Positions 12,280 through 42,367 of a DNA stretch of 43,939 bases are shown piece by piece (within the stretch, counting starts at the first letter, position 1; each line of letters starts with the position of its first letter). This stretch comes from Spirosoma fluviale. GTDB taxonomy: Bacteria > Bacteroidota > Bacteroidia > Cytophagales > Spirosomataceae. The notes beneath the pieces were generated by a model, which saw only the letters and a list, made by a program, of their open reading frames with translations, was not told where the DNA came from and made no database searches. A program made the position numbers and the translations under genes. The stretch covers positions 1 to 43,939 of the forward strand of contig CAMDJW010000017.1 of assembly GCA_945901025.1 (NCBI GenBank), given 5' to 3'.

Positions 12280-15200
12280 ATGAAAAATTATTTACTACTT
12301 ATTTTCTTAACTCTATCGTTCATTTCTCTTGAGGCAAAAGATCATTCTGAGCTGATTAAAAAGGCTGATCGTATCATTGCATTACATAAGCTTTATACCG
12401 TCATGCATAAAACTCAAATTCCACCTAGCGGCGACAAGCATGATTATATGAGCCAAGGACCCTATTGGTGGCCAGATCCAAGCAAGCCAGATGGAAAACC
12501 ATACATAAGAAAAGATGGTGTTAAAAATCCTGAAATAAAGGGAATCACTGATTCAGATGAAATGGATGAAATGATTGACGATGTGGAATTATTGACACAA
12601 GCATTTCAAAAAACCAAAAATGAAAAATATGCGGCCTTTGCCTCTCAATTAATTAAGACTTGGTTCATAGATCCAAAAACAAAACAGAATCCAAATTTGA
12701 ATTTTAGCCAAGGAATTCCAGGCATTAATACAGGTCGGGGAATTGGTATCATTGAAACCCGATTTCTGATTAAAATCACAGACGCTGCAGAGAAATTGCA
12801 AGCATCTGCCCAATGGCGTAAATCCGATCATCAAGCATTAAAAATCTGGTTTAAAGACTTTCTTACTTGGCTTATCGAAAGTCCTATCGGCAAGGATGAA
12901 GCTGATGAGCATAATAACCATGGCACTTATTATGATGTTCAAATTATTAATTTTGCTCTATTTTTGGGCGAAAATGAGTTGGCCAGGCGCCAATTAGAAA
13001 TTACGAAATCTCGAATGGCGTCGCAGTTGAAGCCCGACGGATCACAACCGTATGAATTAGCCAGAACTAAGTCTTTTGGCTATTCGTTAATGAATCTCCG
13101 AGGCTTCTTTTATTTAGCCGAATTTGCGCAAAAATTGAATGTTGATCTATGGCATTATCAAACACCTGAGGGTGCGTCAATTAAGAAGTGCTTGGATTTT
13201 TTAATCCCTTACATCAAAAAAGATAAGGTGTGGCCATACCAACAAATTGCTGAAATTCATTGGGCCGATTCAGAAGAAATCTTGATGGAGGGTTCTAAAG
13301 CTTTTAAAGATATTTCTTATTCAGATTTAGCGAAAAAAGTAAGTGTTGTTGGTCATGATAAATTCTCTCCATCTGATTTGGTGGATCCATTTTTAGATTC
13401 TGCTAATTCTCGCTGGTTTTTCTTTAACTCGACCAGTCGGCCTTTTGGTATGGTCAATCTAAGCCCTGATAATGGTGTTCAAAGTGACTGGGGAGCAGGA
13501 TATCGATATAAATCAGATAGCATTAAATGCTTTAGCCACATTCACGGTTGGCAATTATCGGGAGTCCCTGTGTTACCTACCACCGGGGAATTTAAAGGCC
13601 AATTAGGTTCAGGTCAATATGGATCCACTTTTTCGCATGCCAAGGAAATAGCCAAACCTGGATACCATGAAGTCTATTTGGAATCGTATAAGATTAAAGC
13701 TCAGTTGACCGCTACGACCCGAGTGGGATTTCATAAATACACCTATCCAAAGGCTGAGCAAAGCCAAATTTTATTCGATTTCGCCACCTTTTTAGGACCA
13801 TCCGATACTCAAAGTGCCTATGTTAAGCAGGTAGGAGATCGTAGAATTGAAGGCTATGCTATCATGTCGCCTGCGGTACGCCGACCAAAGATTCTGCCTG
13901 TTTATTTTGTTGTCGAATTTGATAAGCCTTTTGCTAAAATTGGCGCATGGAGAAAAGGTAAATTAGAAGCTTTCTCAAATGAGATTGAAGGAGAGAAAAT
14001 AGGGGTATATGTGAGTTTTCCATCGGTTAAAAATGAAGAGCGTTTGATGAAAGTTGCCATCTCATATGTAAGTACGGAGCAAGCAGGTTTAAACCTGAAA
14101 ACGGAAATTCCTCATTGGAATTTTGACCGTGTTGTGGAAGAAAGTAAATCTGAATGGAATGAATGGCTAGGTCGTATTCAGGTGGAAGGCAAGGACGAAG
14201 TGGCAAAGAAAAGATTTTACACGGATTTATTTCATGCTTTGCAAGGGAGACGTATCGTGAGTGATGTAAATGGGAAATATTTGGACATGACAGGTGAAAA
14301 GCCACGTGCGGGTCAAATTCCTTTGAAGGCTAATGGCCAACCTAAATTTAATCACCATAATTTTGATGCCATGTGGGGAGCACAATGGACGATCAATACC
14401 TTGTGGCATTTGGTGTATCCTGAGGTGACCGAATCGTTTATTAATTCGATGTTGATGATGTATGATGACGGAGGCTTAATTCCGAGGGGTCCCGCGGGTG
14501 GAAATTATACCTATGTGATGACGGGAGCATCTTCAACTCCTTTCATTGTGAGTGCTTTTCAAAAAGGGATTCGCGGTTTTGACGTACAAAAGGCCTATGA
14601 AGGTATGCGTAAAAATCATTTCCCGGGGGGCATGATGAGTAAGGCAGGTTATGAGCACAAGACTTTTAAAGGTGGCGGCATTGAATATTACATGGAGCGC
14701 GGCTATGTGCCTCATCCTATCAGTAATATTCGATATGGCTTTCATATGGATGGATCTGCGCAAACGCTTGAATATGCTTATCAGGATTTCTCTTTAGCCC
14801 AAATGTCAAAGGCTTTAGGAAAAACAGATGATTATCATTTGTTTATGAAGCGTTCACAGAATTTTAAAAATATTTGGAATCCAGCTTTAGGTTGGATGTG
14901 GATCAAAAATCTAGATGGAAACTGGGAGAAATCAGTGGATATTCTACGTTATGACCATGGTTGGGAAGAAGGAAATGCAGCCCAATGGACTTGGTTTGTC
15001 CCACATGATTTAAAAGGTTTAGCCACCTTAATGGGAGGAAAAGATAAGGCCGTTGCGAAATTAAATGAGTCTTTTGAAAAGGCAGAGGCTCATGATTTTG
15101 TCAGTGGAAAATCGCATGATAAGGAAACTCAGGAGGAAAATCGCCGGGTGTATTTAAATTTTGGGAACCAGCCTTCCATTCAAACGAGCTATATTTTCAA

Positions 15201-15621
15201 TCAAATCGGTGCTCCTTGGTTGACCCAAAAATGGACCCGCAAGGTCATCGAAAAAGTGTATTCAGGCCTTTCGCCCGATTATGGATATAGCGGAGATGAG
15301 GACCAGGGACTCATGGGTTCATTAGCCGTATTGATGAAAATAGGCCTATTTAGCATGGATGGTGGTGTGGCTCAAACGCCCTATTACGATTTAAGTAGTC
15401 CTATTTTTGATAAAATTGAAATTAAATTAAATCCTGATTTTTATACAGGGAAAACAATTTCAATAGAGACTAAAAATAATTCTCAGGATAATATGTATAT
15501 CCAACAGGCGAGTTTCAATGGCAAGCCGATAAAATCTTGGATTTCACATCCTGACCTAATTAAAGGCGGAAAAATCTATTATGTTTTAGGAGCTAATCCG
15601 AACAAGAACTTTGGTCAATAA
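12280..15621 (+). CDS. Alginate-lyase-family / GH92-like fusion enzyme
   Basis: This 1113-residue protein joins two carbohydrate-active modules behind a signal peptide (residues 1-19). Residues about 20-345 form an alginate-lyase-family (PF05426-type, PL5/PL38-like) toroid with GPYWWPDPSKPDGKPYI (60-76), TGRGIGIIET (151-160), a likely catalytic NNHG (212-215) and ARTKSFGYSLMNL (261-273). Residues about 365-1050 resemble GH92: RPFGMVNLSPDNG (387-399), RFYTDLFHAL (645-654), TLEYAYQDF (829-837), EEGNAAQW with the probable acid Glu898 (897-904), PHDLKGL (908-914) and GDEDQG (1005-1010). GH92 enzymes are calcium-dependent, mostly alpha-mannosidases, but several usual substrate motifs differ here. 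The two modules would cut a uronate linkage and then trim a side sugar; this is inference. A small secreted-protein gene overlaps its stop by one base. Confidence 0.85.
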   Translation: MKNYLLLIFLTLSFISLEAKDHSELIKKADRIIALHKLYTVMHKTQIPPSGDKHDYMSQGPYWWPDPSKPDGKPYIRKDGVKNPEIKGITDSDEMDEMIDDVELLTQAFQKTKNEKYAAFASQLIKTWFIDPKTKQNPNLNFSQGIPGINTGRGIGIIETRFLIKITDAAEKLQASAQWRKSDHQALKIWFKDFLTWLIESPIGKDEADEHNNHGTYYDVQIINFALFLGENELARRQLEITKSRMASQLKPDGSQPYELARTKSFGYSLMNLRGFFYLAEFAQKLNVDLWHYQTPEGASIKKCLDFLIPYIKKDKVWPYQQIAEIHWADSEEILMEGSKAFKDISYSDLAKKVSVVGHDKFSPSDLVDPFLDSANSRWFFFNSTSRPFGMVNLSPDNGVQSDWGAGYRYKSDSIKCFSHIHGWQLSGVPVLPTTGEFKGQLGSGQYGSTFSHAKEIAKPGYHEVYLESYKIKAQLTATTRVGFHKYTYPKAEQSQILFDFATFLGPSDTQSAYVKQVGDRRIEGYAIMSPAVRRPKILPVYFVVEFDKPFAKIGAWRKGKLEAFSNEIEGEKIGVYVSFPSVKNEERLMKVAISYVSTEQAGLNLKTEIPHWNFDRVVEESKSEWNEWLGRIQVEGKDEVAKKRFYTDLFHALQGRRIVSDVNGKYLDMTGEKPRAGQIPLKANGQPKFNHHNFDAMWGAQWTINTLWHLVYPEVTESFINSMLMMYDDGGLIPRGPAGGNYTYVMTGASSTPFIVSAFQKGIRGFDVQKAYEGMRKNHFPGGMMSKAGYEHKTFKGGGIEYYMERGYVPHPISNIRYGFHMDGSAQTLEYAYQDFSLAQMSKALGKTDDYHLFMKRSQNFKNIWNPALGWMWIKNLDGNWEKSVDILRYDHGWEEGNAAQWTWFVPHDLKGLATLMGGKDKAVAKLNESFEKAEAHDFVSGKSHDKETQEENRRVYLNFGNQPSIQTSYIFNQIGAPWLTQKWTRKVIEKVYSGLSPDYGYSGDEDQGLMGSLAVLMKIGLFSMDGGVAQTPYYDLSSPIFDKIEIKLNPDFYTGKTISIETKNNSQDNMYIQQASFNGKPIKSWISHPDLIKGGKIYYVLGANPNKNFGQ

Positions 15622-16013
15622 TGAATATTAATTTAAAAATAGCCCCGCTGGTTTACCAATCAAATTATTTGATCAAGGCCTTATGTGTCATTTTTTTTAT
15701 AGGTGTTTGTGTGGATGTCTCCGCACAAACAAAAAAAACCATCGAATATAAAGCTCCGAATTTTGGCTGCACGTTTGAAGATGGTCCCTTTAAGGCGATG
15801 ATCAAGGTTGAGCAAAAAGGCCAACCTAAAATCAACCTTGAGTTTTCAACTTCTGTGGAAATTCAAGGTTGCCAAGTCATCCAGATTGATTTTGACAAAA
15901 TTGAGAAAGAATTGGTGGCTAATTTTAAGCCAACAGACATCGAAGATTCCGGTAATGTGATTATATCTGCGGACCGAGGAATCAGATACGAAATTCACCT
16001 TATTTTACCCTAA
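15621..16013 (+). CDS. Small secreted protein of unknown function
   Basis: The 130-residue product is not one I recognise. It has an N-terminal hydrophobic stretch (about residues 17-34, LIKALCVIFFIGVCVDVSA) ending in a likely signal-peptidase site before QTKK. A mature domain of about 95 residues follows, with alternating strands and two cysteines (in NFGCTFEDG and IQGCQVI). The ATG overlaps the stop of the lyase-GH92 gene (TAATG), so the two are translationally coupled. Its stop is separated by one base from the stop of the convergent lyase gene. It may be a small binding or accessory protein for the fusion enzyme. Confidence 0.65.
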   Translation: MNINLKIAPLVYQSNYLIKALCVIFFIGVCVDVSAQTKKTIEYKAPNFGCTFEDGPFKAMIKVEQKGQPKINLEFSTSVEIQGCQVIQIDFDKIEKELVANFKPTDIEDSGNVIISADRGIRYEIHLILP

Positions 16014-16014
16014 A

Positions 16015-17163
16015 TTAAAAGGGTTTTTGATTCCATAAAATGGGATTTCGAATCGGGAAATTTCGGATGACTTCTTGGTTTGTAGGGAAATGATCTAGTT
16101 TTTTCCAAAGGGCTAAGCTGTTATTATCTCCATGAATCGCAGAAAAATACAGAAAACTTTGCGCGATGGGCCACTGATCGAAATACATGACATCAGCTGG
16201 ATAGGTCCACCGGCTTTTATCTTTGACGTAGGGCAATAAATAGGATACCCCTTTTTTAATCGATCGCCCATCAGGCATTTGCCAGTCCCACATATTCAAT
16301 ACATGAGCTAGTGTACTCATGATATCTAAATTAAATAGGGAATAACCATAAGGTTTAGTTCTTTTTAATTCGAGGGGAAATGATCCATCGACCGCCATTT
16401 GGTCTGGAATAAAATTTGTTCTAAAGCGTTTTCTACAAAAATCGATCAGTGAGGCGTTGCCAGTAAAAGATGCAAATACGGCCACTTGGAGCGCCCAACA
16501 AGTTCCATGGTTGTTTAGCGCATCTCTTTCAGCTATTCCATAGGGATGCGTCGTCATCCATAATACGTATTCCTTAAACCAGGCGACAAATGCGCCATAG
16601 TCCTCTGGGGCTATTTGGCTTTTTAGGGCTTCCATGGCCTTGACCACTTCCAAAAAATGGATGGTATCAATAATGCCAATGCCGCGCCCTGTTGCTTTTC
16701 CTTTAATTGCCTGAGCATATAATAGGGAAGGGTTCATACGCGTGGATGGGTCCACAAACCAAGCCTTAAAATGCGGAATAGCCGCTTTAGCATATTGAGC
16801 TTTTTTTGTGAATGTGTAGGCAGAAGCGAGTGAGCCTACGATCTCACTGAAACGTATCATGGCTAATCGGTGTGCCACAAAATTTTCAGGATTAGTCTCT
16901 CCGTCTCTTTGTATATAGGGACCATCGGGATTTGCTGGGTCGGGCCACCAATAATCGCCTTCCGAATAAAAATCATTGAGGCCTCCGGCTGATCGCGGAC
17001 TTTGAGTGGCGGTAACGGTAATGGGTTTTTGAGCTAAATTTTTATTCGCTATCGCTATCGTTTTTGCGATACGCTCTTTGGAATAAACTTCCCTAGGAGC
17101 TACAGAAAAACCTAGGCTAGTGCTTAGTAAAAAAAGAAATAAGAAAGAAATTTTCAATTTCAT
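16015..17163 (-). CDS. Alginate-lyase-family polysaccharide lyase
   Basis: This 382-residue secreted enzyme (signal peptide about residues 1-20) has the alginate lyase fold of PF05426. Motifs are GDYWWPDPANPDGPYIQRDG (69-88), TGRGIGIIDT (158-167), LNNHG (216-220) with the likely catalytic Asn-His pair, and KRTKPYGYSLFNL (268-280). These match, block by block, the N-terminal module of the fusion protein encoded opposite, so the two are paralogues. Family members include alginate and glucuronan lyases, so a beta-eliminating attack on a uronic acid chain is likely. The ATG at 17163 overlaps the sulfatase stop by four bases; an upstream start in the same frame would intrude further into the sulfatase. 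It is the last gene of the susC-led operon. Confidence 0.87.
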   Translation of the reverse strand: MKLKISFLFLFLLSTSLGFSVAPREVYSKERIAKTIAIANKNLAQKPITVTATQSPRSAGGLNDFYSEGDYWWPDPANPDGPYIQRDGETNPENFVAHRLAMIRFSEIVGSLASAYTFTKKAQYAKAAIPHFKAWFVDPSTRMNPSLLYAQAIKGKATGRGIGIIDTIHFLEVVKAMEALKSQIAPEDYGAFVAWFKEYVLWMTTHPYGIAERDALNNHGTCWALQVAVFASFTGNASLIDFCRKRFRTNFIPDQMAVDGSFPLELKRTKPYGYSLFNLDIMSTLAHVLNMWDWQMPDGRSIKKGVSYLLPYVKDKSRWTYPADVMYFDQWPIAQSFLYFSAIHGDNNSLALWKKLDHFPTNQEVIRNFPIRNPILWNQKPF

Positions 17164-18701
17164 TTGACTTGCATTTTTGTGGCCCACTCGGAGTATTTAG
17201 CTAAAAGATTTTTAAATTTTTCGGGATTTTTTTTGATCAAATTATTTGTTTCAATTCGATCTAATCTGACATTGTACAATTCCCATTCTTTCACTTCATC
17301 GTCCCAAACCAGTTTCCAATCCCCTTCCCGAATCGCCCGATTTCCAAAATGCTCCCAAGCAATAAAAGGTTGGGATGCCCTTTTGCTTTGTTTAAATATG
17401 GGCACCAAGCTTTTGCCCTCGACGGCCTTTGATGATTTAGTTTTTGTTAAGTCCATGATGGTTGGGAAAATATCCATAATATGTCCCACTTGGTCACTTT
17501 GAAAGCTTTTTTTAATGCCTGTTGGGTATGAAATAATTAAAGGCGTCGAAATTCCACCCTCGTGCATCCAATGTTTGTACATCCGAAAAGGCGTATTACT
17601 CGCATAGGCCCATTCTTTTCCGTAGGTGGTGTAGCTTCCCGGGGCGCCAATTTTCGTAGTCAATGAAGCATTGTATTTATCTTGTCCTAAATCTTTGGAT
17701 GAACGTTCGTTTAATACCTCGTGGCAAGCGCCATTATCTGAAAGGAAGAAAATAACAGTATTGTCAAAGGTTCCATTGGCTTTTAATTCCTGTATTATTT
17801 TCCCGATTCCTTGGTCCATCTTGTCGACCATCGCCGCATAAGTGGCCATTCTTTCGATCCAAATTATCTTGTCGGCTTCTTTTCCAAAATCTACAATCAT
17901 TGGATCCGATCCAGGTAAATGGTCAATATTGGGATTTAATTTAAGTTTATTTTGTTGGTCAAATCGCTGCTTCCGCAAAGCTTCCCATCCCTGAGTGTAT
18001 GTAGATTTATAGGAATCAATCAAATCTTGGGGCGCGTGTATCGGCCAATGCGGCGCCGTGTAGGCTACATAAAGAAAAAACGGCTTTCCCGTAGAATGAT
18101 TTTTCCGTAAATAGGAAACGGATTTATCTGAAATGGCATCTGTAAAATAATAATTTCCCTTGGGTGCAAACGGCTCGTTATCTTCTACGAGCTGGCGTTT
18201 AGGCAATAATTCATAATAACTATTAGCCCCTGAAATTAATCCATAAAAGTGATCAAAACCTCTTTGGTTAGGCCAATCGGGCTTTTTTTCGCCCACATGC
18301 CATTTGCCAGCCATGTAGGTATTGTATCCATTCTTTTTTAATTCCTCGGCGATCGTCGGGGTATTTACGTTTAAAAAACCTTGGTAAGATCCCGTTTTAC
18401 TCCGATCATAATCACTTGTAACCACCATTCCTCCCATACCTGCTTGGTGTGGATACATACCTGTAAGTAAAGAAGCTCTACTCGGGCAACAGCGTCCTGC
18501 ATTGTAAAATTGGGTAAAAATGGCCCCCTTCTTGCCCAGTAAATCGATGTTGGGCGTTTTGATTTCTGATCCAAATATTCCAATATCACTATAGCCCATG
18601 TCGTCCACCAAAATCACGATCACATTAGGTGGAGTTTTTTGTGCTAATAAAATCGGTGGAATAGCTATGAAAAATAAGCAAATTAGGATGTAATTTTTCA
18701 T
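17160..18701 (-). CDS. Secreted type I sulfatase (arylsulfatase family)
   Basis: The 513-residue protein has a signal peptide (about 1-20) and a sulfatase domain. The formylglycine motif is CPSRASLLTG with the modified Cys at 72, the metal-binding pair DD is at 33-34, GKWHVGEKKPD carries the Lys/His pair, PHWPIHAP carries another active-site His, and FLSDNGACHE supplies further metal ligands. It should remove sulfate esters from oligosaccharides in the periplasm after Cys-to-formylglycine conversion by a maturase encoded elsewhere. Its overall look resembles arylsulfatase A-like S1_4 members, but the subfamily is uncertain. It overlaps both neighbours by four bases. Confidence 0.93.
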   Translation of the reverse strand: MKNYILICLFFIAIPPILLAQKTPPNVIVILVDDMGYSDIGIFGSEIKTPNIDLLGKKGAIFTQFYNAGRCCPSRASLLTGMYPHQAGMGGMVVTSDYDRSKTGSYQGFLNVNTPTIAEELKKNGYNTYMAGKWHVGEKKPDWPNQRGFDHFYGLISGANSYYELLPKRQLVEDNEPFAPKGNYYFTDAISDKSVSYLRKNHSTGKPFFLYVAYTAPHWPIHAPQDLIDSYKSTYTQGWEALRKQRFDQQNKLKLNPNIDHLPGSDPMIVDFGKEADKIIWIERMATYAAMVDKMDQGIGKIIQELKANGTFDNTVIFFLSDNGACHEVLNERSSKDLGQDKYNASLTTKIGAPGSYTTYGKEWAYASNTPFRMYKHWMHEGGISTPLIISYPTGIKKSFQSDQVGHIMDIFPTIMDLTKTKSSKAVEGKSLVPIFKQSKRASQPFIAWEHFGNRAIREGDWKLVWDDEVKEWELYNVRLDRIETNNLIKKNPEKFKNLLAKYSEWATKMQVK

Positions 18702-20530
18702 TGTTTAGTCAGTTTAAGTTCTTCCATGAGGGCCAACGAGAAAAAGGCTGATGTATATGCGCAAGTAATTGGATACCATGGTCTAAAAGCGGCGCCGACG
18801 GCCGAATGAATTGTTTTCCCAACAATCCCCCCATATGCTTGTCGGTCAGGTCCTTGGTATTGATTTTTCATACACCAAGTTAATGATTTTCGAGCCATCA
18901 TGACATATTTTTTCTCTCCACTAGCTGCGTATAATTGGTATAATAAATAACTCCACAAGGCAGTGCCTTTTTCACTTATGCCCACTTTCTCTACAGGCTC
19001 ATCCGTGATAAAGTTCCAGTGGCCATCAGGTTTTTGCCAAACTTGCATGCGATCGGCCATTTTTTTAGCTAAATCGAGGTAAGGTCCTTTTGGGTTGTTT
19101 CGATGAGCGGCCAATAATCCCTCCATCGCCCAACCAAGTCCCCGAGTCATTTTTATGGTGGGTTGAACCCCAGTTTTTTGATGCCATCCTCGCTCCCATA
19201 ACCCGTCGGGCCGACTCAGTTTTTTCAAATGCTCTTGTATATATTGTTCGGCCATGTTGAAATACTTAGGGTCTTTTGTTGTAGCGTATAAATTAGCTAT
19301 TCCTTCAGCTCCAAAACCCGATTCATCAATCGTATGCTCAGAAAATTTTTGTTCATCCACATAATAATCTTGTGGGATAAGACCATATTGGGTCATTAAG
19401 CGATCCGTAGTTTCAGCTAATAATTTCGCCGCATCTAAATATTTTTTATTTCCTGTTTCAGCGTATAGGGGAATCCAAGCCCAACCTGAAAAAAAATTCG
19501 CATCAGAAGTGCTATAACATTGTTGGTACCCAAAATCTGGCAAAATAATATCTCTTCTCCAGCGGGAAAGTGGTACACCAAACATAGGATGTTTGACATC
19601 CATGATTCGTGTGTTGATGGCCGACTGACCTATTTTTTCTGCTGCTGACAATAGCCCTTCAGACGATGTGGAAATAGTTAATGCAGATATTTTTCGAGCG
19701 TTTAAAAGCACTTTTACCGCGGGTCCCGAACCCCAAATCCAATGATTTGATCGATAACTCTGTGCATCTAAATCATAAAATAAGTTGAGCCCCCCGTACG
19801 TCAGACTACTAGCATTGTTGTTTTGAGATCTAAGGATATAATCGATGGATTTTGAAAGAGCTATTTTTAAGTTTTTTTGAGTTAAACTACTATTTGTTGG
19901 CTCCGACCTCACTATAGTGTTTTTAGACCAATCTATTTTATGTTTGATTGTTTTTGATATCCCATTTTCCTCGTAATGCAACGTAATTGTACCTTTCCAA
20001 TCCTCACTTAAAGGAGTAAAATGATAGGTTAATGCACCATTTAATGGCTGTAAAGTTTGTTGAATATAAAAGTCTTTAATTTGACGGGCGCGCGGTTCTA
20101 TGTACAGCGTGTTTTCCCAGTCTTCCAAACGGTCTGCCTCAAGGTTTATGTTCTTTTTATTTTGTTCAGATTTTTTGAAAAAATGCTGATTCCAAGCTGA
20201 CACTGTGGCCATTGAATCAAGAATAATATGCCCTTTCATACCTGGATTTCGAACAAAATCAATCACGGGATACCAAATTTGTTTATTGGGTAAAGGATTA
20301 GGTAATACCGTTTGTGGCTCAGGATGTTCGGTTGAAATATCGGTGATCTTCGTTATCCGAGTATTTCGATCACTTCTTATTTGAATTTTTACATCTTGAA
20401 CATGAGTACCTAAGCTTGCATGAAGCGTAATTCCGGCTCCGTTTTGACTCCAAGACACCTCATGTTGATTAGCTTGCGCAAACAATATTTCAGAGGACAA
20501 TAGGAATAAACTGATGAATATTGATCTCAT
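18698..20530 (-). CDS. GH88/GH105-like (alpha/alpha)6 hydrolase with N-terminal beta domain
   Basis: The 610-residue protein has a signal peptide (1-18), an all-beta region of about 190 residues, and then an (alpha/alpha)6 toroid from about residue 215. The toroid contains NHWIWGSGPA (262-271), STSDANFFSGWAWIPLYAETG-type repeats (340-360), IDESGFGAEG (401-410) and KMTRGLGWAMEGL (460-472). The RGxGWAxxG motif and helical repeats resemble unsaturated uronyl hydrolases of GH105/GH88, though the match is distant. The extra beta domain is unlike a simple GH105. It overlaps the GH88 gene upstream and the sulfatase gene downstream by four bases each, so a role next to GH88 on lyase products is likely. 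Exact activity is unknown. Confidence 0.6.
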   Translation of the reverse strand: MRSIFISLFLLSSEILFAQANQHEVSWSQNGAGITLHASLGTHVQDVKIQIRSDRNTRITKITDISTEHPEPQTVLPNPLPNKQIWYPVIDFVRNPGMKGHIILDSMATVSAWNQHFFKKSEQNKKNINLEADRLEDWENTLYIEPRARQIKDFYIQQTLQPLNGALTYHFTPLSEDWKGTITLHYEENGISKTIKHKIDWSKNTIVRSEPTNSSLTQKNLKIALSKSIDYILRSQNNNASSLTYGGLNLFYDLDAQSYRSNHWIWGSGPAVKVLLNARKISALTISTSSEGLLSAAEKIGQSAINTRIMDVKHPMFGVPLSRWRRDIILPDFGYQQCYSTSDANFFSGWAWIPLYAETGNKKYLDAAKLLAETTDRLMTQYGLIPQDYYVDEQKFSEHTIDESGFGAEGIANLYATTKDPKYFNMAEQYIQEHLKKLSRPDGLWERGWHQKTGVQPTIKMTRGLGWAMEGLLAAHRNNPKGPYLDLAKKMADRMQVWQKPDGHWNFITDEPVEKVGISEKGTALWSYLLYQLYAASGEKKYVMMARKSLTWCMKNQYQGPDRQAYGGIVGKTIHSAVGAAFRPWYPITCAYTSAFFSLALMEELKLTKQ

Positions 20531-21696
20531 TTTTTATTTTTTTGACGGACCAATGCTTCTAAAAAATAGTAATCAGCATACACGATGGGTGCATCTATTT
20601 CAAATCCATTTGGCAAACCGCCCGTGCTGTGGTTTAAAAGAAACCCATGAGAAGAAGAGGCTACAGGGGCTAAATAATCGGAAGAACTAAGGCTTGCTAA
20701 GATCTTATCGGCAAATCCTTGGTAATAGTTTTTTTTGTAGGGTTGTAGGTTGGCCAACTCATACAACGCGGAAGCAGTAATAGCCGCGGCGGAGGCATCT
20801 CTGGGTACATGAGGGATTTTAGGATCATCAAAATCCCAATAAGGAACAAGGTCTGAAGGTAATCTAGGATGATTCAAGATGTATTGAGCAATATTTTCAG
20901 CTAAATGTAAATATTCTTTTTTCCCCGTTTCTCGATAACATACCGTGTAGCCATAGAAAGCCCATGCTTGGCCTCGCGCCCACGCAGATGCGTGCGCATA
21001 GCCTTGATGCGTATTTTTTTTGACTACGGCACCCGTTTGAACATCGTAATCTAATACATGGTAAGAGCTAAAGTCGGGCCTAAAATGATTTTTCAAGGTT
21101 GTGTTGGCATGCGAAACGGCAACCTTATAAAAAGCAGAATCCTTGGTTTCCCTGAAGGCCCAAAACAATAATTCTAGGTTCATCATATTGTCGATGATCA
21201 CTGGGTTAGCCCATTTGTCCCGACTATGATCCCAAGAGCGAATAACACCTGTGATGGGGTTGAATCTTTTTATATTGGTTCTGGCTGATTGAATTAAGAT
21301 ATCACGATAAGTAGCATTGTTAGTCAAACGAAGCCCATTCCCAAAACTTGTGAACATCTTAAATCCCATGTCATGGGTTCCAGCATTCATTTTTTCCTTC
21401 TCTAATGGTAGCGTGTAATTTTCTGCTTGGGCAGCCCACTTTTTATTTCCAGTTAATTCATATAAATACCACAAGCCCCCTGGGAAAAATCCTGAGCACC
21501 AGTCTTTTGAGGCAACTAAAATTAATGAATCGTTGCGCACGGTTCTCGGACTCACCTTGTCGCTATTTCTTGAAGCAACTCGGGAAGACTCCCTCAGCGC
21601 ATAATCCATTTGAGATTCTATTTTTGTGATCAGGCTGGCTTGTTGGGCCGCGCCGCTAAAACACAATAGCGAGAAAAAAGCAATGTATTTTTTCAT
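20527..21696 (-). CDS. GH88 unsaturated glucuronyl hydrolase
   Basis: GH88 enzymes remove the 4,5-unsaturated uronic acid that polysaccharide lyases leave at the non-reducing end, by hydrating the double bond. The 389-residue length and the signal peptide (about 1-18) fit the periplasmic members. The two key aspartates are visible: D109 in THDMGF and D169 in IIDNMMNLELLFWA. SAWARGQAWAFYGY and RDASAAAITASALYEL are further family blocks. Known members act on chondroitin, hyaluronan, heparan or gellan disaccharides, so this gene strongly links the locus to a uronic-acid polymer cut by lyases. Only one base separates it from the upstream sulfatase gene. Confidence 0.92.
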   Translation of the reverse strand: MKKYIAFFSLLCFSGAAQQASLITKIESQMDYALRESSRVASRNSDKVSPRTVRNDSLILVASKDWCSGFFPGGLWYLYELTGNKKWAAQAENYTLPLEKEKMNAGTHDMGFKMFTSFGNGLRLTNNATYRDILIQSARTNIKRFNPITGVIRSWDHSRDKWANPVIIDNMMNLELLFWAFRETKDSAFYKVAVSHANTTLKNHFRPDFSSYHVLDYDVQTGAVVKKNTHQGYAHASAWARGQAWAFYGYTVCYRETGKKEYLHLAENIAQYILNHPRLPSDLVPYWDFDDPKIPHVPRDASAAAITASALYELANLQPYKKNYYQGFADKILASLSSSDYLAPVASSSHGFLLNHSTGGLPNGFEIDAPIVYADYYFLEALVRQKNKK

Positions 21697-21697
21697 G

Positions 21698-23266
21698 TTA
21701 TCTGGATTGATTTTGAGTTTTTAAGAAGTTGGTTAACATCTCCTGATGTTGTTTTAAAACACTAGAATATTCAGTTTTTAAGGCCAAATTTTCTTTTTCG
21801 AGAGGATCTTTTTTATAGTCATAAAGTTCTATGCCGATCACTGGATTATCTGAATTGATTTTAGAGGTATGGAACTCTCCTTTAAACCAAGTGACCATTC
21901 TAAATTGGTCAGTCCTAATCGCATAACCCATCGCTTTATCGTTCATGCGTGGATATTGACTTTGAGCAAATCTTTTCACTTGTAGGCTCGGATTTTTCAT
22001 GGCAGGAACTAAACTTTTTCCTGCTAATCCATTCGGGATTTGAAGCCCGGCCAATTCAGTCAGTGTGGGAAATACGTCAACAAACTCAGAAATCCCCTTT
22101 ACTTGTTGGCCCCCTTTGAAACCTGGCGCAGAGAAAATTAAAGGAGCTCTTGTAGCCTGTTCAAAATTGCTATGTTTCGCCCACATCGTATGGTCACCTA
22201 AATGCCAACCGTGATCTCCCCAGAGTACGATAATGGTGTTTTTATCTAGACCTTGTTCATTTAGGGCATCAATAAGCAAGCCTACTTGGGCATCCGTATA
22301 ACTCACACTCGCATAATAACCATGAAGTAGTAATCGCTGTAATTCATCTGATTTAGGCGAATATCCAGTTGGCATACGCTCGCCCGAAGGTAAAATATAT
22401 TGATTAACTAGCTCATTAGATGCTTGAAAAGCAAATTCAGGTGTTCCTGCAGATAAGGACTGAAACTCGGCTAATTTTAGTGTGGATCTTTCGTAGCGGT
22501 CCCAATATTTTTTTGGGGCAACAAAGGGTAAATGGGGTTTAGTAAGACCCACGGCCATGAAAAATGGATTTCCTTCTGTTTTTAATTTTTTTATTTGTTG
22601 GATTGCTTTTAAGGTATTTGCTCCATCTATATAGGCGTCATCAGGAACGTCGATGGCTTCGTAAAGAGGTCGGCGGCCATTTTCGACAAAGTCCTCTAAT
22701 TCTTTTCCTTTTAGTCCATTTTTTATTCCTTCCTCTCGGAAGCTGCCGATCAATCGAATAAGTTCCTGTGACTGATAATAGTTATTGAAGGGTTTATTAA
22801 AACCTTTGGCAAAGTCATCTTTATCTAGTTTTAAGTAGGGGATAGACCAAGAGGCCTCATCCGAATTTTTATCCACAGACCTTGAGTCAAATACTTTTCC
22901 GATCCCAGAGGTGGTGTAACCTTGTTGGCGGAAATACTGCGGCAATGTCAATATGTTAGGAACTTTGTCCCGTATCAGCGTTTTTAAATCCCAAATCTGT
23001 GTATAATCTGGCCGCTGTCCTGTAAGTAAACTAGCTCGAGTGGGTGCGCAAACGGCTTGTTGGCAATAATTTGATAAAAATACAGTCCCCGACAAAGCCA
23101 GTTTATCAATATTAGGCGAGTGTACTTGAGTTTCTCCATAACAACCTAGCATGGGCTTAAGGTCGTCGATAGCAATGAAAAGTACGTTGGGTTTTGATTT
23201 ATTTTGTGCAAACGCACAGAGGGTCATGAATTGTAGAATCGCAAAAAGGTATTTTGCTGTTTTCAT
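21698..23266 (-). CDS. Iduronate-2-sulfatase-like secreted sulfatase
   Basis: The 522-residue protein has a signal peptide (1-20), DD at 34-35 and a sulfatase motif CAPTRASLLTG with the predicted formylglycine Cys at 73. The Ser of the CxPSR consensus is Thr. The pattern FIAIDDLKPMLGCYG, GRRPDYTQIWDL-like segment and the LWGDHGWHLGDHTMWAKHS block are characteristic of the iduronate-2-sulfatase branch (S1_7-like). In that branch the enzyme removes 2-O-sulfate from uronic acid, but bacterial members vary in substrate. A hairpin separates it from susD upstream, so its expression may be lower than that of susCD. Confidence 0.88.
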   Translation of the reverse strand: MKTAKYLFAILQFMTLCAFAQNKSKPNVLFIAIDDLKPMLGCYGETQVHSPNIDKLALSGTVFLSNYCQQAVCAPTRASLLTGQRPDYTQIWDLKTLIRDKVPNILTLPQYFRQQGYTTSGIGKVFDSRSVDKNSDEASWSIPYLKLDKDDFAKGFNKPFNNYYQSQELIRLIGSFREEGIKNGLKGKELEDFVENGRRPLYEAIDVPDDAYIDGANTLKAIQQIKKLKTEGNPFFMAVGLTKPHLPFVAPKKYWDRYERSTLKLAEFQSLSAGTPEFAFQASNELVNQYILPSGERMPTGYSPKSDELQRLLLHGYYASVSYTDAQVGLLIDALNEQGLDKNTIIVLWGDHGWHLGDHTMWAKHSNFEQATRAPLIFSAPGFKGGQQVKGISEFVDVFPTLTELAGLQIPNGLAGKSLVPAMKNPSLQVKRFAQSQYPRMNDKAMGYAIRTDQFRMVTWFKGEFHTSKINSDNPVIGIELYDYKKDPLEKENLALKTEYSSVLKQHQEMLTNFLKTQNQSR

Positions 23267-23356: not shown

Positions 23357-24832
23357 TTATTTGATGGAAGGGTTATTAACTAACTCCACATCAGGAAGGA
23401 ATAATGTAAAGCGAGCAATGCTGCCTCCCGTAGGAGTTTTTCCAGCGGCTTTCGCTACTGCATCAGCACGTCCTGTTCTCACCATATCCCACCATCTTTT
23501 ACACTCATAGATGAATTCATATCCTCTTTCTTGGAAAATCAAATCGTCAAAAGCTGTTTTGGATAACCCGGCAGGAAAGTCAGCGAATGTGCTCGACTTA
23601 GCTAAGTCTACCCCATATCCTCTTCTACGAACTTGGTTTACCGCGTCATAAGCAGCTTGTGTTGGACCATTTAATTGGTTTTCACATTCAGCAAAAATCA
23701 AATAGGCCTCAGCAAAACGATATAAATAATAATCATTTCCAGCAGCTGTTTCTTCAGGTGCAGCACCATCTCGGAATTTACCAAACATAAAGGAAGCTTG
23801 AGGAATTAAATTGGCTCTTACCTTTACACCTTTGATAGTAATGGTATCGATTAAATTCCAAGTTCTACGTAAATCTTTCCTATCCCAATCTCTGATTAAA
23901 GGAGCATTTCTACACATTAACGCGGAGATTCCACGAGCAGCAAGACCAGCATCTAATGCTCTACCCTCGAAAGCATAGGTTGGCAAGAATGAGCCTAAAG
24001 CTTTTTGCTGTGAAAATTTGATCGCAAAAATTTCTTCAGAGTTCGTTGGCGTAGAGGGCGAATATAAAGTCTCTAATGATTTTACTAAATCATAACCATA
24101 CGTTGCTTTGTTGTCGATTACCTCCTTTGCTTTTAAACGAGCATTGGTATAATCTTTTTTCCATAAATAAATATCAGCAAGCATCATTTTGGCTGAACCT
24201 TTAGTCGCTCTTCCAGTGTTAGCTTCTGGAACTTTGTTAGGCAAATTTGCCTCACAATAGGCCAAGTCTTTGGTAATTTGATCAATGATAATGCTAGAGC
24301 TTGTTAAAGGCAAAGCTGTTCCATCTGAGTTTGCGATAGGAGACAAACGTAAAGGAACGTTGCCATGCATACGGGTCAACCACCAATAGCATAAGGAACG
24401 AACGAAATAAGCCTCCGCTTTATAAGGTGCTTTGATGTTTTCTGCAAGTGACTTATCATCTTCAATCGCTTTGATGATCAAATTTGATTTTCCGATGGCT
24501 TCATAGAAAGTTGTCCATCTTGCTGCATTATCATTTCTTTGAGGCTCAAAATTATAGTTCATATAATTAGTTCCACCCCCAGCAGGTAATTGGCAATACT
24601 CTGCTAAACCTTCAATATCCCTTGTTAAAGTAGATTCCCAGAGACGACCACGAGAACGTGAAAGTGGCTCATAGGCCCCGATGACAAACGCATCCAAAAG
24701 AGGCTTGCTTAATGTTGAAATTTGATATCGAGCGGGAGGAATTTCTTCTAAAAATTTCTCGCAGCTTGAAAGTGATCCCATCATGAAGATCATTAAAATG
24801 GGAATTATTTGTATGTTTTTTATCTTTTTCAT
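23357..24832 (-). CDS. SusD/RagB-family surface glycan-binding lipoprotein
   Basis: SusD-like proteins sit on the outer surface, bind oligosaccharides and form a lid on the SusC transporter. This 491-residue protein starts with a lipoprotein signal ending LSSC (lipidated Cys24). It contains the helical TPR-like repeats of the family, including ALTRPR-like KGSAKMMLADIYLWKKDY, and the C-terminal block FQERGYEFIYECKRWWDMVRTGR. It ends DVELVNNPSIK, the usual family terminus though without the final QNPG tail. It follows its susC with a 28-base gap. The ligand is unknown. Confidence 0.94.
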   Translation of the reverse strand: MKKIKNIQIIPILMIFMMGSLSSCEKFLEEIPPARYQISTLSKPLLDAFVIGAYEPLSRSRGRLWESTLTRDIEGLAEYCQLPAGGGTNYMNYNFEPQRNDNAARWTTFYEAIGKSNLIIKAIEDDKSLAENIKAPYKAEAYFVRSLCYWWLTRMHGNVPLRLSPIANSDGTALPLTSSSIIIDQITKDLAYCEANLPNKVPEANTGRATKGSAKMMLADIYLWKKDYTNARLKAKEVIDNKATYGYDLVKSLETLYSPSTPTNSEEIFAIKFSQQKALGSFLPTYAFEGRALDAGLAARGISALMCRNAPLIRDWDRKDLRRTWNLIDTITIKGVKVRANLIPQASFMFGKFRDGAAPEETAAGNDYYLYRFAEAYLIFAECENQLNGPTQAAYDAVNQVRRRGYGVDLAKSSTFADFPAGLSKTAFDDLIFQERGYEFIYECKRWWDMVRTGRADAVAKAAGKTPTGGSIARFTLFLPDVELVNNPSIK

Positions 24833-24860
24833 AACCTGAATAATTTAAAATTTTAAAGAA

Positions 24861-27857
24861 TTAAAAGTTGACGGTCAAACCTAATGTAACCGTTTTAGAA
24901 CCTGGATATGCACCATTGTCAACCCCTTGTTGGAGTGAGTTTCCACTAAATGCATTTACCTCAGGATCATATCCTTTGTAATTGGTTATGGTAATTATAT
25001 TATTACCTGATAAATAAATATTGGCAGATTTGATAAACTTAGTATCTCCCAAAGGCAACGCGTAATCAATACGAATGTTTCGTAAACGAATGTAAGATCC
25101 ATCCTCAATAAACAAATCAGATCTTCTGTGAATACTAGAGGCTCTTGGCTTTGGATAGTAGGTATAAATTTCCGCTGAACGATTGTAAATTGGCGTAGGA
25201 GTAGCCGCTGTAAATAACATTTGATTATCAATGCTGTTTCCTTGAACACTCGACCAAGTCATCATAAAGTTAAAGCGCTTATATTTTAAGCTCGTATTTA
25301 AACCTATGATCGTCGATGGATAAGGATTTCCAATGTACTGGTTGTCACGTCCATCAATAATTCCATCTGCATTCACATCCATAAATGCCATTTCTCCATC
25401 TGCTGCGTACCCATTGAATTTAGGTCCGTAAAAAGAGGATAATGGATCGCCCGGAGTAATTCTAGAGTTACCAGAACTAAATGGCAAATTGTTTTTAGTA
25501 GCAACTACCTTGTTCTTATTGATAGAAAGGTTGGCGTCGATAGACCAACGAAGATCCTTGGTCGCAATTAGATCAGTACCAATTTCCAATTCAAATCCTT
25601 TATTTTCTACTTCACCCACGTTGTCAATAATCGTATTATATCCAGACGATGGAGGTAGTTGGACCGTCGCTAATAAAGAAGTCGTGTTCTTTACATAATA
25701 ATCTAAAGTAACCCGATATTTATCATTTAAGAATCCGAAATCTAAACCAGCATTCGTTTGAGTTGTTGTTTCCCAAGTCAAATTGTCATTTGGCAACGTA
25801 GGAGATAATCCCACCGCTAAACCAGATCCAGCTCCCTGTGCCGTATTAATAACGTTTCCAATCAATAATGATTGATAGGGTTGAATCGCAGGGTTTCCAG
25901 ACTGTCCCCAAGTAGCACGAACTTTAAGGTTAGAAATAGCCGTCACATTTTTCATGAAAGGCTCTTCAGACGCTTTCCAAGCTAAACCCAATGAAGGGAA
26001 AATACCGTATTTTTTATTCTTGCTAAATACAGACGCGCCATCTCTACGAATACTGGCTGTAAATAAATAACGATCTTTAAAGTTTAAACGTACCCTTGAA
26101 AAACCTGAAACTAAGCGGTTTGTGATGATATCAGTAACCGGTTTTGAAACAGATCCTGCTGCCGCAAAGCTATAATTTTTCAAATCATCTGAAATATATT
26201 TTGATCCTAACAAATTGATGATGTCTTGTTGGGCCGATTGGATAGAACCCCCAACAATACCTTCAAATTCCAAATCACCAAACTTCTTTTTGTATTCCAA
26301 ATAATCTTCAGCCACTACATTTAAAGAGCTTGTCGTTGTTAATTGGCCTATACCCACCCCAGAACTTAATTGGGCTAACACAATTGGGAAATATAAATCC
26401 GCACGTGCAGAAAAATAATCACCTCCTATTCGGGTGGTATTAACTAATCCCTCAGCTAATTTAACATTGAAATCCATACCGCCTTGAAAACGAACCACAG
26501 TATTGCGATCTAATGATTCCTTCGTAAATGCTAATGGATTTTCTACGTCGATTCCACTGAAAGAAAATGGTCTAGGATTTCCATAGGTACCATCTGCATT
26601 ATAAACAGGTACTGTAGGTGATGCTAAAACCATAGCACCTACTCCATTTTTACCCGTATAACGGGTTGGTGAGTTATCTGACGCAGAGAAACCATTAGAG
26701 ACAGTTCTAGATGCGGTCATATAAGTTCTTAAGCTAATTCTTGAATTCAACTGAGAAGTTAAATTGAAACGCATGGATCCTCTATTGAAGTCAGAACCTT
26801 TGATAATTCCTGGTTGGTCTAAGTAGTTTCCAGAAACATAGTACTGCGTTTTATCATTACCACCTGAAAAACTTAAGGTGTGATTTTGCTGCAAGGCTGA
26901 TCGCAATACTTGATCTTGCCAATCCGTTTCCGCATTCTTCGCATTCGTTACTTCAGCAGGAAGTGCAAGATTTGAATTTGTATAATATTGCTTAATAAAA
27001 TCAATCATTTGAACTCCATTCATCAAGTTCAATTTTCTTTGGATGATCTGATTGGTATAAGTAGATTCGTAGGTAACGCGACTCACACCTGCTTTACCAC
27101 TTTTAGTCGTGATTTGAACTACACCATTCGCTCCTCTTGAACCATAAATCGCGGTGGCAGATGCATCTTTTAATACTTCAATACTTTCGATATCACTTGC
27201 ATTAAAAGAGGACATACCGTTCATAGCTCTATTGTCATTGTTGTATTGAGGTACTCCGTCAATCACAAAAAGTGGCTCATTACCGCCTGCGATGGATGTA
27301 ACTCCACGTACACGAATGGAAATACCTGCACCGGGTTGGCCAGAACTTTGTTGTACCTGAACTCCAGTCATTCTTCCCTGCATAGCAGATTCGACACTGA
27401 CAACCGGCATTTCTTGAATCGTTGCTGATTTAATGGAAGAAGCTGAACCTAAGAAGTCCTTCTTTTTTTGATTTCCGTAACCCGTAACGACAATTTCTTC
27501 TAAGGATTTAGCATCTACGGCTAATTGGATATTTAGAACAGATTGATTGGCAATTTTAACTTCTTGAGACTTATAGCCTACAAAAGAGAAAACTAAAACG
27601 TCTCCAGGATTTACGTCAATCGAATATTTTCCATTAACATCTGAATTGGCTCCAGTGGATGTGCCTTTTTTGGCAATCGTAACTCCGGGCATTCCAGCTC
27701 CGTTTTCATCAGTTACAGTTCCGGTTAGTTTGGAAGCTGCCACTGCATTAAGGTTCGTCGAACCAAGCGTGTAAAACAATGGCATTGCAAAGGCCATTGC
27801 GAATAGGATGCTCCAACGAGCTACCCTGTGTTTCATGGGGTAAGTTTTTTTCATCAA
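24861..27857 (-). CDS. SusC/RagA-family TonB-dependent transporter
   Basis: This 998-residue outer membrane protein imports oligosaccharides with energy from TonB. After a long signal region (to about residue 41) comes a carboxypeptidase-D-like beta domain (about 44-115, LTGTVTDENGAGMPGVTI), then the plug starting at EEIVVTGYGNQKKKDFLGSA (120 onwards) with FVIDGVPQ and ESIEVLKDASATAIYGSRGA. The rest is the 22-strand barrel, ending KTVTLGLTVNF. The start may be at residue 1, 2 or 8. It heads the enzyme operon running to 16015, and a LacI-type palindrome lies about 120 bases upstream of its start. Confidence 0.95.
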   Translation of the reverse strand: MMKKTYPMKHRVARWSILFAMAFAMPLFYTLGSTNLNAVAASKLTGTVTDENGAGMPGVTIAKKGTSTGANSDVNGKYSIDVNPGDVLVFSFVGYKSQEVKIANQSVLNIQLAVDAKSLEEIVVTGYGNQKKKDFLGSASSIKSATIQEMPVVSVESAMQGRMTGVQVQQSSGQPGAGISIRVRGVTSIAGGNEPLFVIDGVPQYNNDNRAMNGMSSFNASDIESIEVLKDASATAIYGSRGANGVVQITTKSGKAGVSRVTYESTYTNQIIQRKLNLMNGVQMIDFIKQYYTNSNLALPAEVTNAKNAETDWQDQVLRSALQQNHTLSFSGGNDKTQYYVSGNYLDQPGIIKGSDFNRGSMRFNLTSQLNSRISLRTYMTASRTVSNGFSASDNSPTRYTGKNGVGAMVLASPTVPVYNADGTYGNPRPFSFSGIDVENPLAFTKESLDRNTVVRFQGGMDFNVKLAEGLVNTTRIGGDYFSARADLYFPIVLAQLSSGVGIGQLTTTSSLNVVAEDYLEYKKKFGDLEFEGIVGGSIQSAQQDIINLLGSKYISDDLKNYSFAAAGSVSKPVTDIITNRLVSGFSRVRLNFKDRYLFTASIRRDGASVFSKNKKYGIFPSLGLAWKASEEPFMKNVTAISNLKVRATWGQSGNPAIQPYQSLLIGNVINTAQGAGSGLAVGLSPTLPNDNLTWETTTQTNAGLDFGFLNDKYRVTLDYYVKNTTSLLATVQLPPSSGYNTIIDNVGEVENKGFELEIGTDLIATKDLRWSIDANLSINKNKVVATKNNLPFSSGNSRITPGDPLSSFYGPKFNGYAADGEMAFMDVNADGIIDGRDNQYIGNPYPSTIIGLNTSLKYKRFNFMMTWSSVQGNSIDNQMLFTAATPTPIYNRSAEIYTYYPKPRASSIHRRSDLFIEDGSYIRLRNIRIDYALPLGDTKFIKSANIYLSGNNIITITNYKGYDPEVNAFSGNSLQQGVDNGAYPGSKTVTLGLTVNF

Positions 27858-28161: not shown

Positions 28162-30087
28162 TTATTGAATAGTAAACTGATAATTTCCTTGTAATCCTTT
28201 TTCTTTTGAAGTGAATACAATTCTTTGAACAGGTTTATTCGACCACTTGGTTTTAAAACTTTTATACTCAGGTCCCTCAGTGGAAGGAAGATCTACCGTC
28301 ATCGTCCACTTTTTAGCGTCATACGTTAGTACATGTTTATCTCCTGTACTCGTTGTCAAATTTAATTTCCCTGGTGTAGAAGAATCAATCGTACACAAAG
28401 TCATGAAGGCTTGTTGGACCGCTTGCTTATTTTCAGAAAGTTCAAACTGATCTTTAATTTCTACTTGGCCTTTCAATTTATTCAATTGCAAGGTTCTTTT
28501 CCATGTTTTAATCCCTGCTTCCGCTGGATAGGCTTTCGCTAAATCTAAAGACATTCCCGCCGCTTTTTCATTCATGAAATTACTCACTGCGCTAGCTTCA
28601 AACTCCCGACCTACTTTTTGGCCTACTCCATTAATGAAAGGTAAATTGTGGTATTCAGATTGAGTAAACCAAAGGGAATAGCGTTGTGCAGAAAAAGTCC
28701 TAGCCGTGTAGTTTCCTCGGCCTGCGTCGATAATAATCGGTTCGCCTTTCGCATAATAGACAAAATCGCCTACATCATTATGGTTATGCGACTCAGCATT
28801 ATGTCCACCATGTGCTGCAAAAAACAAGTCTTTATGTCGTGCCGTCACTACTTGGATGTCATTAAACCAATAGTCGCCAAGCTCCGGATGAGCTATTTTT
28901 TCCTTCGGCATGGAACTAAAAGCCATTAAGTTCCAAAGATGTCGGTGTTTTTGATACCCTGTCATACTGATGGCCGGATCAAAATTTTGTGTCGCCCATT
29001 GGCCAAAAGCCATCAAAGGAGCATCATTTAATGCTTTTCCAAATCGATACAGCATGATGCCATCCGGTTTCAAGGTAGGATCTGCGTCAGCAAAATTCAC
29101 AAAGTAGTCATTCGAAATATGCATCTTATATACATAGGAAGCCATTTTTTGGATGAATGGCTCTTTGTAGATTTCACATTTTTCATTGGTCGCCGAAGCC
29201 AATACTTGGAGTGCATCAAATGCACTTGCTCCCGCAGCAAACCAATACGATGGACCTTCATCGCAACCCGCATCATCTCCTAAACCATTAAAATATAGGT
29301 CTAGGTAGTTCATGTGGGTGTACACATGTGAAAGCCGAGTGGCTTCATTTTTTTCTAAAAGTAAATTGGCCAACATCACATTCGAGATAATCCATGGATT
29401 CCAGTTATTTACGGCACGTGTTTTACTGAGCCAATTATACCGTTCTTGGGCCAGGACCGGTGTTAGGATTTTTTTATTGACCTCGAAGTAGATTCTTTTA
29501 CGTAAAAGTTTAGAGATTTTATCCAATTTGTCTCCCACAAAATAGTCGGTCAGCGCCAGACCCACGGCAGTTTCTGCCCCAAATAGATCGACCGTTGGGT
29601 CCTCAGCATCCGGCATTCCACTTCTCGCTTTTTGGACCGACAAATGTGCGGGAACTCCCCAATAAGTTTCTTCACAGATCGACCAGACATAATTCATGAT
29701 TTTTTCAGTAAAGCGGCCTTTATCTTCTAGTGTCTCAGCAATCACAAGTTCCATCAGACTATTTCTTTTTCCGAACGAAATTTTACCATGTTCTTCTCGA
29801 TCACCCGATCGAACATATTCCATTAAAAGCGTAGCATCAATCACTGGAACTGGCTTATTTAAAACCGATTCAGCTCTTTTGATGATTTGTTTTTGCTCAT
29901 CCTCTGGGATGATATTAACCCATTCAGCACGTGTTTTTGGATATGGCTTATAGTCCTTTTGTGAAATGAGCGCCTTTTGCACCATTTCTTTACTGAAGGC
30001 TTTAGCTAAAAAATTACGAGGAGTTACTTGTGCTTCTGCCAAAGCAGAAATCAAAATTAAGCTTACATAGAGCAAGTGTTTTTTCAT
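28162..30087 (-). CDS. Heparinase II/III-family polysaccharide lyase
   Basis: The 641-residue secreted protein (signal peptide 1-20) has an (alpha/alpha) toroid followed by a beta-sandwich, as in heparinase II/III-fold lyases (PL12/PL21/PL33 type). Likely active-site parts are NNWNPW (227-232), DEGPSYWFAAGAS with Tyr281 (276-288), and the beta-domain motif HGGHNAESHNHNDVGDF with His434/436 (426-442). Such enzymes cleave heparan, hyaluronan, chondroitin or related uronate-hexosamine chains by beta-elimination; the family cannot be fixed by eye. It is the second gene of a two-lyase unit, 17 bases after the first, and has its own terminator. Confidence 0.85.
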   Translation of the reverse strand: MKKHLLYVSLILISALAEAQVTPRNFLAKAFSKEMVQKALISQKDYKPYPKTRAEWVNIIPEDEQKQIIKRAESVLNKPVPVIDATLLMEYVRSGDREEHGKISFGKRNSLMELVIAETLEDKGRFTEKIMNYVWSICEETYWGVPAHLSVQKARSGMPDAEDPTVDLFGAETAVGLALTDYFVGDKLDKISKLLRKRIYFEVNKKILTPVLAQERYNWLSKTRAVNNWNPWIISNVMLANLLLEKNEATRLSHVYTHMNYLDLYFNGLGDDAGCDEGPSYWFAAGASAFDALQVLASATNEKCEIYKEPFIQKMASYVYKMHISNDYFVNFADADPTLKPDGIMLYRFGKALNDAPLMAFGQWATQNFDPAISMTGYQKHRHLWNLMAFSSMPKEKIAHPELGDYWFNDIQVVTARHKDLFFAAHGGHNAESHNHNDVGDFVYYAKGEPIIIDAGRGNYTARTFSAQRYSLWFTQSEYHNLPFINGVGQKVGREFEASAVSNFMNEKAAGMSLDLAKAYPAEAGIKTWKRTLQLNKLKGQVEIKDQFELSENKQAVQQAFMTLCTIDSSTPGKLNLTTSTGDKHVLTYDAKKWTMTVDLPSTEGPEYKSFKTKWSNKPVQRIVFTSKEKGLQGNYQFTIQ

Positions 30088-42353: not shown

Positions 42354-42367
42354 GTGTTTAACTTGTT

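Follow-up and report, generated by a model that had tools for sequence, protein, structure and literature searches.

A single gene of the 43,939-nucleotide Spirosoma fluviale contig CAMDJW010000017.1 (hereafter the window, meaning the whole stretch that was analysed) encodes a lyase module of the Pfam family PF05426 and a glycoside hydrolase family 92 (GH92) module in one polypeptide of 1113 aa. On balance, we favour the view that this protein is a bifunctional periplasmic enzyme of a glycosaminoglycan (GAG)-like utilisation locus, in which a lyase resembling polysaccharide lyase family 38 (PL38) and a GH92 enzyme from a divergent branch of its family would act on the same imported oligosaccharides. 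Glycan enzymes that combine a PF05426/PL38-like lyase with other modules are a known kind; a GH92 partner appears not to have been described.

The fused gene and its history

The reading frame (12280..15621, forward strand) runs through both modules without an internal stop. PF05426 covers residues 41-318 (profile positions 2-275 of 275; 291 bits against a Pfam cut-off of 22.2), the GH92 N-terminal domain PF17678 covers residues 367-595 (profile complete, 210.6 bits) and the GH92 catalytic domain PF07971 covers residues 601-1104 (profile positions 1-463 of 464; 464.3 bits). The NCBIfam model of the GH92 family, TIGR01180, spans residues 363-1109 at 426.4 bits, against a cut-off of 249.55. The parts of the gene are as follows.

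12280..15621, +: fused lyase–GH92 gene, 1113 aa, present in 12 of 38 genus genomes
12280..12336, +: Sec-type signal peptide, about residues 1-19, in which a lipobox Cys was not seen (judged by eye)
12340..13350, +: PL38-like lyase module, residues 21-357, with N213/H214, R262 and Y268 aligned to the Bacteroides ovatus PL38 (BoPL38)
13351..13377, +: joint, where the lyase C-terminus runs into the start of mature GH92, lacking the signal peptide of standalone relatives
13378..14064, +: GH92 N-terminal domain, PF17678 (Pfam), residues 367-595
14080..15591, +: GH92 catalytic domain, PF07971, residues 601-1104, with E897 and D1006/D1008 kept

The signal peptide gives the protein a predicted location in the periplasm or outside the cell. 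An earlier, sequence-only reading of this DNA had proposed one polypeptide holding both enzymes, and the single frame, the three Pfam domains and the same layout in relatives bear this out. That reading placed the lyase at about residues 20-345, which is close, the alignment to BoPL38 extending the module to about residue 355. Its full-length GH92 module also stands, both Pfam profiles being covered, but the end that it proposed, residue 1050, falls about 55 residues short. The source genome (2.64 Mb in 32 contigs) has two PF05426 matches in a genome search, the fused gene and its neighbour at 16015-17187, and one GH92 match.

That two genes were merged through a sequencing or assembly error is almost certainly not the explanation. 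In favour of such an error, the genomes are draft assemblies and standalone versions of both lyase and GH92 exist. However, 12 of the 38 contig loci found (L004-L014 and L020), in records titled as Cytophagaceae, Cytophagales or Spirosoma metagenome-assembled genomes (MAGs), hold both modules in one frame. In the genus sample, 13 fused genes from 12 of 38 genomes, the source genome included, are collinear and open across the joint in diverged DNA, and one standalone lyase, described below, ends in a tail that resembles the scar of a fused ancestor. A merger near residues 345-365, which the sequence-only reading had named as grounds for its own refutation, is thus ruled out. The two sets are partly identical assemblies. 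Nine of the 12 fused loci are complete at both ends, L008, L009 and L011 being cut by contig ends, and the fused genes of genomes G004 and G009 are truncated at their ends. In the remaining 26 loci, the GH92 match was found neither fused to a lyase nor close to one. Pfam searches of three relative loci returned the same three domains as in the window protein.

Both halves are kept by purifying selection, since the ratio of nonsynonymous to synonymous change (dN/dS, Nei-Gojobori count) is low in each: 0.047-0.076 for the lyase across three pairs and, lower still, 0.031-0.037 for GH92. A fourth pair, with L012, was saturated at synonymous sites. One MAG carries a second fused copy (L020, G001:C74) that is 84% identical to the fused protein of the window in its lyase half and 96% in its GH92 half, a contrast that could point to a recombination event close to the joint or to a mixed bin. 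Nothing informative was found among repeats around the fused gene. Plasmid records gave 83 matches to the query, none over 80% of it, and the ten listed match the GH92 part.

The joining of the two genes apparently happened a single time, in a common ancestor of some members of this Cytophagales genus. The GH92 modules of the fused proteins fall into a single clade (support 100/100), which groups (100/99) with standalone GH92 proteins of Emticicia, Arsenicibacter, Spirosoma, a Flavobacterium and Chitinophagaceae, and the standalone GH92 proteins of genus members G003, G010, G018 and G030 (60-63% identity) fall outside that grouping. Nine standalone N-termini show an apparent signal peptide of their own followed by the motif that opens the fused GH92 module. 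Duplication of the neighbouring lyase was rejected as a source of the fused one: the two are 35.5% identical and lie far apart in the tree.

Genome G018 carries a standalone lyase at the corresponding locus, preceded by the same transporter gene and followed by the same small gene. In the tree this lyase forms a sister pair with the fused one from L012 (100/99), and the fork uniting it with all fused lyases has support of only 88/76. Its tail retains the linker and continues into a stretch resembling the last GH92 residues. In a shuffle test, to which the stretch was put after being noticed, the 25-nt DNA match to the GH92 end was reached by none of 5000 letter shuffles; the protein match, modest alone, was reached by 24 of 5000. 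Given the sister relation of its lyase to a fused one and a tail that holds the linker and a GH92-like end, G018 seems to have dropped the GH92 part through an internal deletion that followed the fusion, while keeping the lyase, and the same features disfavour it as a pre-fusion ancestor. Two further genomes, G010 and G031, have a 340-aa standalone lyase at a different place.

Two predicted active sites

The best solved relatives of the lyase module in phmmer searches were 3nfv (E 1.2e-76; 42.5% identity) and the B. ovatus PL38 chains 9fi1 (E 1.7e-57) and 8bdq (BoPL38; E 3.2e-57; 31.7% identity). Residues N213, H214, R262 and Y268 align to N242, H243, R292 and Y298 of BoPL38, for which PMC13169297 gives Y298 and H243 as proton acceptors, and all four are invariant across the 21 rows aligned. 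The module also has the (alpha/alpha) barrel fold of PL38, so that similarity, catalytic residues and fold together identify it as PL38-like. PL38 enzymes that have been characterised degrade alginate, glucuronan or GAGs (PMC13027841, PMC11790493); GAG-degrading members in print are RiPL38 (PMC13027841) and an Akkermansia PL38 (PMC11790493). None of these, nor BoPL38, is described in these sources as joined to GH92.

In the GH92 module, the general acid E897 and D1006/D1008 match E533 and D642/D644 of BT3990, and all 46 aligned rows retain both the acid and the D644-type base. The subsite that holds the sugar is altered. In BT3130, Asp353 and Trp390 hold the mannose O4 in subsite -1 (PMC5930347); the equivalent residues here are G700 and G737, unlike the Asp and Trp of the GH92 alpha-mannosidases BT3990, BT3130 and BT3965, and the conserved mannose-type subsite is not kept. 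The position of BT3990 W88 is a gap (W88/G92), and the 580-loop has no clear His-Glu pair, the position of His584-Glu585 being D-K by MAFFT and H-D by phmmer. The complete motif set claimed by the sequence-only reading therefore holds for the lyase and for the GH92 acid and base, but not for the glycone-binding pair.

The altered subsite is widely shared. Both O4-binding residues are absent in 33 of the 46 rows, standalone proteins included (30 of them Gly-Gly), and both are present in 13, in an alignment that leans to relatives of the query and whose 12 fused rows are closely related to one another. Rows matching fewer than about 650 profile positions (e.g. L011, L036 and contig-end pieces) were left out, as were loci from L042 onwards, which come largely from genomes already represented. 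The branch with altered residues spans several Bacteroidota families by its sequences, and degeneration of the fused module is not favoured, the altered positions being common to standalone proteins. With Gly in place of both the mannose O4-binding Asp and Trp, we assign the module to GH92 from its sequence and fold and do not call it an alpha-mannosidase.

Gene neighbourhood and probable substrate

The remainder of the window downstream of the fused gene holds the following features.

15621..16013, +: small protein with no family assigned, directly downstream; in 10 of 10 fused loci with sequence past the gene (partial in L013)
16015..17187, -: second PF05426 lyase, standalone, 35.5% identical to the fused module
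17160..18701, -: sulfatase, PF00884
18698..20530, -: 610-aa protein with weak GH127/GH88-like matches
20527..21696, -: GH88-type unsaturated glucuronyl hydrolase (3wiw, E 1.5e-102)
21698..23266, -: iduronate-2-sulfatase-like sulfatase (6hhm arylsulfatase, E 7.9e-82; 5fql iduronate-2-sulfatase, E 4.5e-76)
23357..27857, -: SusD and SusC, pair 1
28162..30087, -: PL33-like lyase (8r73, BcPL33HA, E 7.1e-111; 8r6z, BtPL33HA/BT4410, E 3.5e-107)
30105..31922, -: PL35-like lyase, lipoprotein-type signal by eye (9o3q PL35 chondroitinase, E 6.8e-86; 8khv, E 1.1e-83)
33432..34265, +: 3-keto-disaccharide hydrolase domain protein, PF06439
34298..39064, -: SusD and SusC, pair 2
39192..40796, +: GH20 family hexosaminidase
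40878..43795, -: two more sulfatases, PF00884

The window thus combines SusCD pairs, GAG-type lyases, a GH88 enzyme and four sulfatases, the gene content of a GAG utilisation locus. A GAG-like polymer is the best-supported candidate for the substrate class, rather than alginate or plain glucuronan, because the neighbours include PL33-like, PL35-like, GH88 and iduronate-2-sulfatase-like enzymes. PL33 enzymes act on GAGs and gellan (PMC11848413) and PL35 enzymes on GAGs (PMC12088678). The second lyase lies downstream in nine of 10 fused loci with sequence past the gene. Where there is no fusion, the GH92 relatives of L021, L022 and L023 (Chitinophagaceae or related) adjoin sulfatases, and heparinase-II/III-type lyases stand beside GH92 in L021 and L022, the two scanned by Pfam. 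The Bacteroides thetaiotaomicron locus PUL CS/DS/HA likewise has SusCD, GH88 and sulfatases; its co-regulated PL33 and 2-O-sulfatase are encoded outside the locus, and no PF05426-type lyase or GH92 is named in its described make-up (PMC6994673).

In the pathway that we propose, the PL35-like lipoprotein would cut the polymer at the cell surface and the SusCD pairs would import the fragments. The PL33-like and PL38-like lyases and the GH88 enzyme would shorten the chain, and the sulfatases and GH20 would strip it. The PL38-like module would cut a 4-linked uronic-acid bond by beta-elimination, with Tyr/His as the base-acid pair beside the neighbouring Asn and Arg, and the GH92 module would hydrolyse an alpha-glycosidic bond of the same imported oligosaccharides by an inverting Glu/Asp mechanism, removing an alpha-linked sugar other than plain, free terminal mannose. 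The sequence-only reading had suggested a uronic-acid repeat carrying a sugar branch. The locus does point to a uronic-acid glycan; the branch is only one possibility, as GH92 could equally well follow the lyase on the same chain.

Several observations weigh against this proposal. To our knowledge, no activity has been reported for any fused lyase–GH92 protein. The AlphaFold model is good for GH92 and weak for the lyase, with pLDDT below 50 at residues 41-93, 210-214 and 258-265, and the lyase active site is consequently backed by its sequence alone; the module could still be an alginate or glucuronan lyase. The altered subsite -1 means that the label alpha-mannosidase may be wrong. Fusion and locus are not strictly linked: in G011 (G011:C15; L013) the fused gene is separated from the other genes of the locus, part of which sit on a different contig (L068), and G024 (L069) has the second lyase, sulfatase and GH88 and no match to the fused GH92. 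Other standalone GH92 relatives adjoin GH95, rhamnosidase or cytochrome genes, not lyases.

Two other kinds of substrate were weighed. If the target were an algal sulfated glucuronomannan-like polymer, in which mannose alternates with glucuronic acid, then lyase, GH88 and GH92 would act sequentially and the fusion would tie the first step to the last. GH92 action on a C6-sulfated alpha-1,3-mannan is in print (PMC13063451). We nevertheless consider this substrate unlikely: it leaves the PL33-like, PL35-like and GH20 genes unexplained, the genome has one GH92 match whereas the described loci are GH92-rich, and the -1 subsite does not resemble that of a characterised mannosidase. An enzyme for alginate or plain glucuronan, as the Pfam name implies, seems distinctly improbable. 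The closest solved structures, 3nfv and BoPL38, are named alginate lyases, and PL38 includes glucuronan lyases (PMC13027841), but identity to these structures is only 42.5 and 31.7%, the gene content does not suggest an alginate utilisation locus, and the sulfatases, GH20 and PL33-like and PL35-like neighbours do not fit alginate.

The GH92 half raises two further alternatives. It may have turned into a binding or structural domain, leaving the lyase alone catalytic, as the loss of the glycone-binding Asp and Trp, the retention of only the lyase in G018 and the lack of detectable function in one fused module of RiPL8 (PMC13027841) would allow. We regard this as rather improbable, since the acid/base is present in all 46 rows, standalone GH92 proteins from several families have lost the Asp and Trp as well, and dN/dS is lower for GH92 than for the lyase. 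There is also a slim prospect that the branch without the O4 pair has a new glycone specificity, for a sugar that is O4-substituted or has no O4, for example one bearing the unsaturated uronate that the lyase makes. The fusion would then be a relay, with the lyase making the end that GH92 removes; we know of no description of such a cut. The preferred reading remains a GAG-like locus in which both modules are active.

Some neighbouring genes merit separate mention. The 610-aa protein also adjoins the fused gene in relatives and is without a convincing solved relative; it is possibly an unassigned glycosidase. Genes with a 3-keto-disaccharide hydrolase domain accompany the fused gene or a GH92 relative in three loci, namely the window (33432-34265), L012 (7137-9017) and L017 (4199-5575), and RiPL38 also contains a 3keto-disac_hyd module (PMC13027841). 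Upstream of the fused gene, a 210-aa reading frame (11478-12110, -) begins as an N-acylglucosamine 2-epimerase, of which it has the first 136 residues, and ends in an AraC-type helix-turn-helix. At this position L010 has a 409-aa epimerase, and the window frame looks like a deletion or assembly join.

Related fusions and their meaning

Literature searches, mostly of titles and the starts of abstracts among the papers listed, found no published lyase–GH92 fusion and no paper with both Pfam accessions, in keeping with the earlier claim that the module order had no known description. PL38 and GH92 are mentioned apart in PMC12323373 and PMC13169297. The fusion is less isolated than that claim supposed, because PF05426 lyases join other glycan enzymes in other Bacteroidota. 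In a GAG locus of that phylum, RiPL8 joins an Alginate_lyase-named module to PL8 and RiPL38 joins a 3keto-disac_hyd module to an alginate lyase module (PMC13027841); their partners are other than GH92, and no function was found for the N-terminal module of RiPL8 (PMC13027841). The five-domain NnGH92 (PMC10167667) is likewise a multi-domain GH92 protein, with noncatalytic extra domains in place of the complete lyase found here.

PF05426 lyases fuse repeatedly with other glycan enzymes. Across 395 Bacteroidota genomes there were 41 PF05426 matches scoring 200 bits or more, and one of them lay in a frame of more than 1000 aa, the fused gene of the window. Across 390 genomes of the order, six of 104 such matches lay in frames of at least 800 aa: the fused gene of the window and those of G493, G659, G794, G646 and G535. 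These samples share genomes, the counts apply to the sampled genomes only, and coverage outside Bacteroidota was 14 named control genomes. Where a row had many first-look candidates, six of these were scored, and the long frames opened were those with strong matches; from frames of 500-800 aa, G299:C33 was opened, G244 (L057) was seen in part and G234:C4 was left out. No lyase–GH92 pairing outside this genus was seen among the sampled Bacteroidota and order genomes.

Two of the other fusions join GH88 to the lyase (G493, L101:4332-6797; G299, L104:2869-5145), in different lineages. The L101 lyase groups in the tree with the subtype of the fused lyase, and the L104 lyase looks by its motifs like the other subtype; the two possibly arose independently, each tying a lyase to an enzyme acting on its product. 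Like the window protein they tie the lyase to a later-acting enzyme, but GH88 is N-terminal, would act on the unsaturated uronate, and there is no GH92. The G535 protein (L102:396-4694; 1432 aa) joins a PF05426 lyase to a GH2 beta-galactosidase-type enzyme. In G659, G794 and G646, all of one genus (L098-L100), the lyase is followed by a C-terminal region of about 500 aa without a Pfam match, which reads like a beta-helix by eye.

The genus looks to be of freshwater, judging from MAG names, and a GAG-type locus in apparently freshwater Cytophagales raises the question of which glycan it serves. The natural pairing of a uronate lyase with GH92 narrows the possible targets of a GH92 branch that is spread over several Bacteroidota families, and G018, with the lyase kept and the GH92 part gone, provides a natural control. 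PF05426 lyases are a recurrent fusion partner, with GH88 twice, with GH2 and with GH92, and such fusions may therefore help to read the order of pathway steps.

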